From: Alphaproteobacteria bacterium | Lineage (GTDB): Bacteria > Pseudomonadota > Alphaproteobacteria > Rs-D84 | Assembly: GCA_017962125.1 (NCBI GenBank) | Contig: JAGCVZ010000010.1 | Coordinates: 1-64,000 of the forward strand | Reading direction: 5' to 3' | Length of the DNA: 64,000 nt | Shown: one piece after another, positions 16,179-49,867 of the stretch | Layout: each line of letters opens with the position of its first letter | Numbering within the stretch: the stretch's first letter is position 1 | Position numbers and translations under genes: made by a program | Notes under the pieces: generated by a model | Told to the model about the DNA's origin: nothing | The model's database searches: none | The model's input: only the letters and a program-made list of their open reading frames with translations

Positions 16179-16208
16179 TTGACTGGATTTTATGTTTTTG
16201 GTTATACT
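16179..16208 (+). promoter_or_regulatory. Promoter of the structured leader
   Basis: TTGACT (16179-16184), an 18-bp spacer and TATACT (16203-16208). The predicted start near 16215 gives a leader of about 220 nt. Confidence 0.6.
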
Positions 16209-16214
16209 TGAATT

Positions 16215-16435
16215 GCTGGCGGGGGTTCCGTTGGCGGGGTGTAGATACCCTTTTGGGTTGCGTCTTTTTAAAGAGGCGAAAAGTACTCCAACCTGGATTG
16301 GTTGGAGGGTTGTGAATAATGGGGGCTTAGGAGCCCATCAAAATAAGCACACAATTTCAACTCAAATTGTATCTAACCTCCAACCACATGAAGTGTTTTC
16401 AGTGGTTTTTTGCATGCAAAAGAAAGGAGAGCAAA
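16215..16435 (+). ncRNA. Attenuator-like 5' leader RNA, copy B (unclassified)
   Basis: This fills the gene-free stretch after ruvX. In order it holds a small hairpin GGGT/ACCC with loop GTAGAT near 16237-16250, then segment 1 CTCCAACC (16286-16293), segment 2 GGTTGGAGG (16300-16308), the conserved strings GGTTGTGAATA and AATAAGC, hairpin GGGCT/AGCCC (16323-16336), hairpin ACAATTT/AAATTGT (16351-16370), GTATCTA complementary to the first hairpin (TAGATAC), and segment 3 CCTCCAACC (16377-16385). Segment 3 runs into a terminator. Pairings 1:2 and 2:3 exclude each other, and the terminator uses the end of segment 3, so the layout fits transcription attenuation. A homologous leader lies at 49688-49867 on the minus strand. 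The ligand or trigger is unknown. Confidence 0.65.
16382..16411 (+). terminator. Conditional terminator in leader B
   Basis: AACCAC (16382-16387) plus TGAA pairs with TTCA plus GTGGTT (16398-16407), with one bulged A, followed by a T-run to 16411. Its 5' arm shares AACC with segment 3 of the leader. It lies upstream of the AAAGGAG site of the surface gene. Confidence 0.7.
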
Positions 16436-16999
16436 ATGGGGTTAGGAAAAATTTCTGTATTTTTGGCATTGGTGGCTGGGACAGCGGCATACGCGACAGA
16501 ACCGAATGAGGCGACAAAGCGTAAAACGGTAACAAGTCGATATTATGTCGATAATGCGATAGCAACCAAGCAAGGTAAATTGGCGGGCAATGGGAACAGT
16601 GTTGCGGTTACGTATCCGAACAGTCTTGGTGGCACGCCGACAACACGAACAATTAACATTGATTTGGGAACCAGTACTTCGGATACCAGTTTGGCGGAAA
16701 CGGGTGCGATAAATACCGCGTTAAATAACAAGCAAGGCAAATTAACAGGCGCGGCGGATACAGTTATAACATACGGCGCAAACGCTGGCGTAACGGGTTC
16801 CAAGGCGGTGTATCAAAGCAGTGGTTCGTATAATGCAAATGCATTGGCAGAGGTTGGGCATGTGAACACAACTATACAGAATGGGTTTAATGCACATTTA
16901 TCGTGTGTAGAATATGTGACACAAAATGACCCAACGAGTGGATGTTTGCTGTGGAATGTGAACCAGTTATCGGGCACATATGTTCCACATGGAAATTAA
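16436..16999 (+). CDS. Secreted surface protein with YYVD/KQGKL repeats
   Basis: 187 aa. AAAGGAG precedes the ATG at 16436, where a signal peptide begins (MGLGKISVFLALVAGTAAYA). The mature part opens with VTSRYYVDNAIATKQGKL and repeats related blocks (GGTPTTRTINIDLGT, ETGAINTALNNKQGKL). The same blocks occur in the following gene (GGTPGSRDIVGTLGT, RGAINVGINAKQGTL), and the VTSKSYVD opening occurs in the gene at 55237-56535. The C-terminal segment has a Cys pair. This looks like a family of exported, repeat-built surface proteins; tail-fibre-like or adhesin roles are possible but unproven. It is preceded by the attenuator-like leader. Confidence 0.7.
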   Translation: MGLGKISVFLALVAGTAAYATEPNEATKRKTVTSRYYVDNAIATKQGKLAGNGNSVAVTYPNSLGGTPTTRTINIDLGTSTSDTSLAETGAINTALNNKQGKLTGAADTVITYGANAGVTGSKAVYQSSGSYNANALAEVGHVNTTIQNGFNAHLSCVEYVTQNDPTSGCLLWNVNQLSGTYVPHGN

Positions 17000-17024: not shown

Positions 17025-18185
17025 ATGAAACGAGTATTTATATCCTTGGTTGGAATTATGTTAACCGGTGTGGCGTTTGGTGGAACCGTTGGCGGCGGTG
17101 GTGGTGGCGGTAGTAGTCAGATTATGGTTCAAGATGTGTATTTTCATTGTGGGGAAACGGCATCCGCGGCTTCTTTGGATTCGGTAGCTAATACGGACGG
17201 TGTTATATCAAATACCAATAAATGTATGGGGGTGGATAATCAGACATGTTATTTGCTGATGGACCGTTATGAGCGATGCGCCGGTGTGGTCGCAAGGTGC
17301 GAGGAGGACGAGGAGGAATGTGCGGCAAAGGTTGAAGAGGCAATTGCAAATGGCGAATGCGATGTTCCTGAAGAGTGTGATGTTCCTGAAGGGTGTGATG
17401 TTATTGTTGGGAATACTCCTTCACATTCAGTGTTTTGTTCGGGGTATGATTATTACGTACAAGACGGTGTGTGTGGAAGGGTGTTGAATAATTCATACTA
17501 TGATACTAACGATATGGAAGTTATATGCCAACGTGATGGTTATACCTTTGTAGACTGGATTGAGATTGTTTCTACCAGCACAAATGGCTATGTTGTTCAG
17601 GATGGTATGTTAGTGCCGATGAGAGTAACGAGGGTTGATTCCTATCCAGTTTGGGAGCAGGATAGTAACAGCGGGCAATCCAGTGGGGCAAGTTCTCTTG
17701 CGCCGACATCGGTAAGTTATGTAGAAAACAAATTGGATACGGTTCAAAATGCTTTTGCGGGAATTGGTGAAAATAAATTAATGACATATCCAACGACGGC
17801 GGGTGGAACACCGGGTTCGCGTGATATTGTGGGAACTTTGGGAACACCAAATCCAACAACCGGGTTGTACAGTAATACCAGTGATACAACCGTTCCAACA
17901 CGCGGTGCAATAAATGTTGGTATTAATGCAAAGCAGGGTACGTTAAGTGGTACGTCTGGTTATGCGGTTTTGGGAACCGGGGTGGATGGTGTGGTTAGTG
18001 AAAAAGCAATATACGGTTCACAAACCCAATTTAATAATGCCTTGGTTGAAACAGGTACATTGAATACCGCGATAATAGATGCGGTTAACAGTGAATTAAT
18101 TCGGGTAAATGAAAACGGTGTACCTGATGAAAATGGTAATTTGTGGAAGGTTAATGAGACATTAACGCTGTTACCGGTTCAATAA
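17025..18185 (+). CDS. Secreted surface protein, paralogue of the preceding gene
   Basis: 386 aa. Signal peptide MKRVFISLVGIMLTGVAFG, then a run of Gly (GGGGGGGSS). Residues about 40-205 form a Cys-rich head (CHCGET-type spacing, KCMGV, TCYLL, RCAGVVARCEEDEEECAAK, three ECDVPE-like repeats, CQRDGY). From about residue 230 it shares with its neighbour the SYVENKLD, GGTPGSRDI, RGAINVGINAKQGTL and LWKVNETL blocks. It therefore joins a unique Cys-rich domain to the common repeat module. It lies 25 nt downstream of the first paralogue with GGGGGA before the ATG, so the two share the leader and its regulation. Confidence 0.7.
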   Translation: MKRVFISLVGIMLTGVAFGGTVGGGGGGGSSQIMVQDVYFHCGETASAASLDSVANTDGVISNTNKCMGVDNQTCYLLMDRYERCAGVVARCEEDEEECAAKVEEAIANGECDVPEECDVPEGCDVIVGNTPSHSVFCSGYDYYVQDGVCGRVLNNSYYDTNDMEVICQRDGYTFVDWIEIVSTSTNGYVVQDGMLVPMRVTRVDSYPVWEQDSNSGQSSGASSLAPTSVSYVENKLDTVQNAFAGIGENKLMTYPTTAGGTPGSRDIVGTLGTPNPTTGLYSNTSDTTVPTRGAINVGINAKQGTLSGTSGYAVLGTGVDGVVSEKAIYGSQTQFNNALVETGTLNTAIIDAVNSELIRVNENGVPDENGNLWKVNETLTLLPVQ

Positions 18186-18213
18186 AAAAACGGTTGCAAT
18201 CGCAACCGTTTTT
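18186..18213. terminator. Bidirectional intrinsic terminator
   Basis: CGGTTGC (18191-18197) pairs with GCAACCG (18202-18208), flanked by an A-run and a T-run, between convergent genes. Confidence 0.8.
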
Positions 18214-49464: not shown

Positions 49465-49473
49465 GTCATATAG
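49449..49473. repeat. Possible third copy of the palindromic repeat
   Basis: It matches 34339-34363 at 21 of 25 positions by eye. It overlaps the terminator and the last codons of the HTH gene, so the similarity could partly be due to hairpin constraints. Confidence 0.35.
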
Positions 49474-49687
49474 AGCCATCGCGCTGACAACGCAACATAC
49501 AAAAGCCACGATTAAATAAACATAGCAAAATATGTTCCGGCACAGGGTCAAGTCCGTGTTCATAACGGCGCAACTGTCTTTCAGAAACACGAAAAACTTT
49601 TGCGGCATCACGTGCTTTTATTTTCTGATTCTTTCGCGCTCTGTGCAATATCTCTCCATAATATCTTGTATCAACCAATACAACCAT
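49466..49687 (-). CDS. Small helix-turn-helix DNA-binding protein
   Basis: 73 aa. The region KARDAAKVFRVSERQLRRYEHGLDPVPEHILL (about 23-54) reads as an XRE/Cro-like helix-turn-helix, with the second helix SERQLRRYEHG contacting DNA. GGAGGAAAG precedes the ATG. The gene is preceded by a 180-nt structured leader with an intrinsic terminator that is homologous to the leader of the surface genes at 16.4 kb. It could be a regulator, possibly autoregulatory; its targets are unknown. Confidence 0.72.
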   Translation of the reverse strand: MVVLVDTRYYGEILHRARKNQKIKARDAAKVFRVSERQLRRYEHGLDPVPEHILLCLFNRGFCMLRCQRDGSI

Positions 49688-49867
49688 TTTCTTTCCTCCA
49701 TAGTTTTTTTATTGTGAAAAAAAATACCGTCAATAAAAATTGACGGTTGGAGGCTAGAAAACTGTCGGAAACAGTGTCGCTTATTCGATATATTCGCAAC
49801 CCTCCAACCCAGTGGAGTTATATTCCGAGAGGTTTTCTAGACCTCGCATTAGGCACCGCCTTTTGCA
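49688..49867 (-). ncRNA. Attenuator-like 5' leader RNA, copy A (unclassified)
   Basis: Read on the minus strand: hairpin GAGGT/ACCTC with loop CTAGAAA, then segment 1 CTCCA (complement 49813-49817), segment 2 GGTTGGAGG (complement 49801-49809), conserved GGTTGCGAATA and AATAAGC, hairpin ACTGT/ACAGT (49761-49775), GTTTTCTAG complementary to the CTAGAAAAC around the first loop, segment 3 CCTCCAACC (complement 49745-49753), and a terminator that reuses ACC. The order and the two conserved strings are the same as in leader B at 16215-16435. The stems differ in sequence but keep pairing, which argues for a selected RNA structure. This accounts for the gap between the HTH gene and the aldolase. Confidence 0.65.
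49717..49747 (-). terminator. Conditional terminator in leader A
   Basis: On the minus strand ACCGTCAAT/ATTGACGGT (49726-49747) is followed by A and eight T. Its 5' arm shares bases with segment 3 of the leader. Confidence 0.8.

Follow-up and report, generated by a model that had tools for sequence, protein, structure and literature searches.

The 64,000-nucleotide stretch of DNA analysed here (the window; contig JAGCVZ010000010.1 of an Alphaproteobacteria bacterium) carries on its plus strand a leader of about 200 nucleotides in front of a probable two-gene operon. A sigma70-like promoter, TTGACT-N18-TATACT, was found at 16179–16208, with TTGACT at 16179–16184 and TATACT at 16203–16208. It is followed by segment 1 (CTCCAACC, 16286–16293), segment 2 (GGTTGGAGG, 16300–16308) and segment 3 (CCTCCAACC, 16377–16385), where segment 2 can pair either with segment 1 or with segment 3. 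Segment 3 overlaps the 5' arm of an intrinsic terminator at 16382–16411, which is composed of AACCAC (16382–16387), GTGGTT (16402–16407) and a T-run (16406–16411). The ribosome-binding site (AAAGGAGA) is located at 16423–16430 and the start codon at 16436. The first gene of the operon (16436–16999) encodes a 187-aa protein with a signal-peptide-like N-terminus, and the probable second gene (17025–18185) encodes a 386-aa protein; neither protein has a Pfam match. The operon is located after ruvX and is convergent with a gene for an AI-2E transporter. A perfect 12-bp inverted repeat, AAAAACGGTTGC/GCAACCGTTTTT, just after the second gene (18186–18213) is probably a terminator shared with the transporter gene. 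Thus, the observation behind the original prediction is confirmed, as the promoter, the three segments, the terminator and the ribosome site are all located where it had placed them.

Segment 2 occurs four times in the window on both strands (0.2 expected, a count that none of 100 shuffles reach), and these occurrences are exactly the segment 2/3 pairs of this leader (leader A) and of a second leader (leader B). Leader B is a second copy of the RNA core at about 49,743–49,847 on the minus strand, and it precedes a 73-aa ORF (49466–49687) with weak helix-turn-helix matches. The folded leader A is more stable than shuffled sequences (z = -4.1). A generic terminator scan did not list the terminator of leader A, because its loop of 14 nt exceeds the limit of 8 used in the scan.

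Leader A belongs to a large family of structured RNAs, here called class A. A BLASTN search with the leader found copies in 47 of 99 genomes searched. A pattern scan of named genomes for segment 2, 44–74 bases and segment 3 returned at least 118 stretches, nearly all from gut, rumen or termite Alphaproteobacteria, including Candidatus Enterousia. One pattern hit, L126, did not match the covariance model described next and was treated as a chance occurrence. We further built a covariance model (R1; 67 sequences, 132 positions), for which E-values are rough because of a short calibration. It finds eight strong copies in the genome of the window, up to 53 in other genomes of the genus, which are about 1 Mb in size and belong to gut Alphaproteobacteria of the Candidatus Enterousia group, 1 to 21 in some genomes of other genera, and essentially none elsewhere in 398 genomes of the phylum. 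The genomes include draft metagenome assemblies. At several loci, namely L117:2360–3000 (minus strand), L087:753–1149, L146:396–765, L049:6905–7273 (minus strand) and L168:601–954, two or three complete copies of the RNA stand in tandem at a spacing of roughly 220–290 nt.

Side-by-side comparison of the copies revealed a larger fold than that of the original prediction, which had not listed the helices P1, P2, P3, P4, P6 and P7. The presumed 5' end forms the P1 hairpin (16215–16222 with 16228–16235), which scores 17.0 in relatives against 11.1 in shuffled sequences. P2 is a 7-bp helix between the loop of the first conserved hairpin and the seven bases just before segment 3; in leader A, TAGATAC (16242–16248) pairs with GTATCTA (16369–16375). 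All seven P2 pairs are present in 190 of 205 hits with 62 different heptamers, although this test chose the best of several start points. The P3 helix (7–10 bp, no conserved sequence) pairs the stretch after P2 with the loop of P7, giving an H-type pseudoknot; in leader A it is formed by TTGGGTTG (16253–16260) and CAACTCAA (16358–16365). Since a MAFFT alignment of the P3 columns was unusable, P3 was tested by an anchored helix search against shuffled partners, where own pairs score 18.0 and shuffled pairs 9.5 +/- 0.2 over 192 units. The P4 hairpin (16261–16278) shows double changes in four of four pairs in relatives. P5 is formed by segments 1 and 2. P6 (16310–16350) carries a strongly conserved motif, GAATA...GAATAAG, seen in leader A as a GAATAAT ... 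AAAATAAG loop with an extra hairpin at about 16320–16338, whereas P7 is formed by ACAAT (16351–16355) and ATTGT (16366–16370). Segments 2 and 3 form the closing stem of this core.

Two alignments were used to assess the fold, of which the first (A1) was built from sequences with good P2. The second (A2) is the cleaner test, since it comprises 38 hits that were not selected by the segment pattern, though it was aligned by the model itself. In A2, 96.1% of the cells of 25 modelled pairs are paired, 22 pairs show double changes (P4, P5, P6 and P7 all do), none of 500 shuffles is as good, and all slid versions remain at 36–44%. The nulls used throughout are simple shuffles that ignore relatedness.

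Both alternative pairings of segment 2 covary across relatives. In 38 units whose segment 3 departs from the consensus (e.g., L029, with CTCCTGATC/GGTCAGGAGG/CCTCCTGACC), the 2:3 pairing scores 22.7 against 15.3 +/- 0.6 and the 1:2 pairing 16.1 against 12.5 +/- 0.4, so both appear to be kept by selection. The segments were located by their best complement, which inflates both sides of the comparison, but the null uses the same segments dealt to other sequences. The 2:3 pairing extends to 10 bp in many relatives. A hairpin that uses segment 3 as its 5' arm followed by a T-run is present in 160 of 190 units (25 expected from shuffling). A TATAAT-like box peaks 31–32 nt upstream of the RNA core, and 170 of 192 units have one within 20–50 nt (58 in shuffles), so that the RNA should start with the P1 hairpin. 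In some divergent relatives (L169, L180 and L176), there is no terminator, and segment 3 instead pairs exactly with the Shine-Dalgarno stretch TTGGAGG or TTGGGAG, e.g., CCTCCAA with TTGGAGG. However, 32 of 192 units lack a recognizable segment-3 terminator, and only seven of those show such an anti-Shine-Dalgarno pairing.

The start codon follows the class A RNA at a median distance of 49 nt. The 197 first genes fall in 88 sequence clusters, and 134 of them have a signal- or membrane-like start by a crude rule. Among Pfam domains, only HTH domains, Listeria-Bacteroides repeats and a few others recur. A variant subgroup (L057, L081, L128 and L133), which has a shifted P2, a short or absent P3 and CTGAGCA in place of the usual P7 region, precedes small HTH-like ORFs. 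Three contigs from a viral collection (L156, L157 and L158) carry class A itself, one of them before an ABC-transporter-like gene.

Searches of leader A against Rfam at gathering and relaxed thresholds gave only chance-level hits, and no Rfam riboswitch, T-box or other leader class fits. However, at relaxed thresholds the sRNA-Xcc1 model (RF02221) matched a typical class A member, L050 (32.5 bits), and a very divergent one (27.2 bits), on the right strand and at the homologous place. In its alignment, the outer Rfam stem is segment 2:3 and the two inner hairpins are P6 and P7. RF02221 also finds a second set of elements in the genus (class B; L198–L217) with the same scaffold, terminators and mostly exported-protein genes. 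One of these class B copies reaches 57.8 bits and thus exceeds the gathering cut-off (53 bits), while another, L204 (37.9 bits), is in the genome of the window (contig 12, 80921–81014) before an exported-protein start, so that both subclasses stand before similar genes in one cell. RF02221 loci above the cut-off were found in 39 of 398 genomes of the phylum, and they carry P2 and P3 strands upstream of the Rfam model (upstream P2 18.6 vs 14.0 +/- 0.4) and the same GAATA...GAATAAG motif. In the search of these 398 genomes, the only R1 hit outside the genus, at G135:C29:10293 (genome, contig and position), is one of these RF02221 loci (71 bits), and several loci are hit by both models independently. 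This reciprocal recognition supports common descent for the class as a whole, not for leader A alone. Leader A itself has no RF02221 hit and is below the family cut-off, and we therefore consider it a sister subclass rather than a filed member.

A conserved P6 pattern drawn from the RF02221 loci hits at least 120 stretches of viral or prophage contigs. In 79 distinct prophage units and 30 other loci, the ribosome-site region repeats the P2 and P3 5' strands around the Shine-Dalgarno sequence, so that the P3/P2 3' strands can pair with either copy. In the prophage units, the ribosome-site P3 scores 17.2 vs 12.4 +/- 0.3, the ribosome-site P2 15.2 vs 12.4 +/- 0.2 and the upstream P3 16.7 vs 13.8 +/- 0.2, and the median distance to the start codon is 45 nt. 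The genes at RF02221 loci include antirepressors (Bro-N, Rha, KilA-N and P22_AR_N) and SymE; a published survey likewise places sRNA-Xcc1 upstream of symE in Xanthomonas integrons (PMC12444791). Among the prophage units (L254–L333 and others), 74 of 79 carry a run of at least five T in the leader before segment 2, in the examples after a GC-rich hairpin, suggesting a second, internal terminator.

Altogether, we consider it likely that leader A is a promoter-proximal, cis-acting RNA switch of the ON type and a sister of the RNA whose 3' ~88 nt are called sRNA-Xcc1 in Rfam. In this view, transcription starts at P1. If the core fold (stem 2:3 closing P6 and P7, with P2 and the P3 pseudoknot docked on it) forms in time, segment 3 would be held by segment 2, the terminator could not form and the exported-protein operon would be read. 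If segment 1 keeps segment 2, segment 3 would be left free and transcription would stop at the terminator. The three expression platforms, namely the segment-3 terminator of class A, the direct pairing of segment 3 with the Shine-Dalgarno sequence, and the repeated strands at the ribosome site of RF02221 loci, agree in sign, since in each of them forming the core would free the gene. The pairings and their covariation, the terminator, the promoter position, the gene context and distribution, and the homology are shown by the sequence comparisons, whereas the interconversion of the two states, the assignment of the core to the ON state, the existence of a trigger and any binding of a small molecule are inferred in the absence of transcript, reporter or binding data. 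Nested-fold energies favor the OFF state of leader A by about 10 kcal/mol (-76.7 vs -66.2), which counts against the model in that the ON state would need help; this fits a switch that needs a signal but leaves out the pseudoknot energy. The most simple trigger would be a ligand or protein recognized by the conserved P6 loop and pseudoknot, and tens of copies per genome would let one signal set a whole set of surface and secreted proteins.

The interpretation in the original prediction is therefore partly supported. Its attenuator-type logic with mutually exclusive 1:2 and 2:3 pairings, its terminator built on segment 3 and its placement before genes for exported proteins agree with our results, and the absence of homologues or covariation in related genomes, which it had named as grounds for rejection, was not observed. 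Its statement that no known class is recognized is not quite right given the homology to the RF02221 core, and its description is incomplete with respect to the pseudoknot (P2/P3/P7 plus P6). The term riboswitch, in the strict sense of a bound metabolite, remains a hypothesis.

Among the possible triggers, direct binding of a small metabolite or second messenger to the P6/pseudoknot core, which is a special case of the above model, is possible but somewhat less likely than not. The large, covarying, aptamer-like core with one strongly conserved loop, its coupling to three different platforms with mutually exclusive structures, the tandem copies and the many copies in one genome, as in c-di-GMP switches, are consistent with this proposal. 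On the other hand, the downstream genes, mostly unannotated exported proteins, HTH proteins and, in RF02221, antirepressors and SymE, do not point to a pathway for a ligand. Control by a trans-acting protein or sRNA that binds the P6 loop or the P3/P2 strands is a less likely alternative. The short conserved loop motif could be a protein site, the variation of P2 and P3 from locus to locus suits RNA-RNA addressing, and the RF02221 strands complementary to the ribosome site recall phage c4 RNA; however, class A strands show no match to their own ribosome-site region (11.25 vs 11.39 in the null), and no candidate protein was found.

It is improbable that the element is mainly a source of a stable trans-acting sRNA, namely the terminated leader, with an incidental downstream gene. 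sRNA-Xcc1 was published as an 88-nt RNA by RACE and of ~100 nt by Northern analysis in Xanthomonas (PMC2996969), so a trans role of the leader piece is not excluded, and its expression has been reported in Xylella and E. coli O157. A published table for Xylella fastidiosa Temecula1 lists five sRNA-Xcc1 homologues at ~381-nt spacing (1,313,466–1,315,082), similar to the tandem copies seen here, which were interpreted as vesicle-borne sRNAs (PMC12189769). This scenario does not readily explain the fixed position before a start codon, the covarying strands upstream of the 88-nt core, the complementarity to the adjacent ribosome site in RF02221 loci, or the overlap of the class A terminator with segment 3. 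A constitutive terminator or structural leader without regulation, or attenuation by a translated leader peptide, is very unlikely. The default nested fold is indeed the terminating one, but the 2:3 pairing is conserved by compensatory changes that a plain terminator does not need, and core lengths vary without keeping a reading frame, as seen from the spacing in alignment A1 without a dedicated ORF conservation test. An integron attC site, suggested by AC...GT strands, was rejected, since the heptamers do not fit the RYYYAAC/GTTRRRY consensus and the copies are dispersed. An HDV-like ribozyme, suggested by a 5' GGCCGG, was rejected by visual inspection, since the 5' strand pairs with the 3' end rather than the middle.

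Compared with RF02221, class A shares the outer stem, the P6 and P7 hairpins with the conserved AATA...GAATAAG loop, the upstream P2/P3 strands and the position before a gene. It differs by segment 1 and a terminator on segment 3, where RF02221 loci have a ribosome-site mimic and often a T-run before segment 2, and by preceding mostly exported proteins rather than, as often in RF02221, antirepressors or SymE. Transcription-attenuating riboswitches such as SAM-I and c-di-GMP-I likewise combine a 5' leader, a conserved folded core, an antiterminator/terminator exchange and many copies, but no ligand is known for class A, and the closing stem of its core would itself be the antiterminator. The c4 antisense RNA of phages P1 and P7 (RF01695) resembles the RF02221 loci as a small RNA upstream of an antirepressor on the same transcript, with two strands complementary to the ribosome site. 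However, none of our covariance model scans reported a c4 match, class A lacks the ribosome-site match, and the fold differs.

Rfam files sRNA-Xcc1 as an sRNA gene, and the literature has treated it for over a decade as a trans-acting sRNA of unclear mechanism. Within the open-access literature searched, which leaves out preprints and most subscription papers, we found no report on riboswitches in Enterousia or before antirepressor genes, and no treatment of sRNA-Xcc1 as a cis switch in the text examined. What appears new is the full pseudoknotted architecture, the cis-acting reading with three platforms and named strands that can be tested, and the extreme amplification in reduced genomes of gut bacteria. 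It is about as likely as not that sRNA-Xcc1 and its relatives, including leader A, form one widespread superfamily of orphan pseudoknotted ON-switch RNAs sensing a still unknown signal, used by prophages before antirepressor genes and by integron cassettes before symE, and amplified in Enterousia-type bacteria to about 50 copies per megabase genome to control the exported proteome. The identity of the signal would indicate what these bacteria, and the prophages that use the same core before antirepressors, are listening to.
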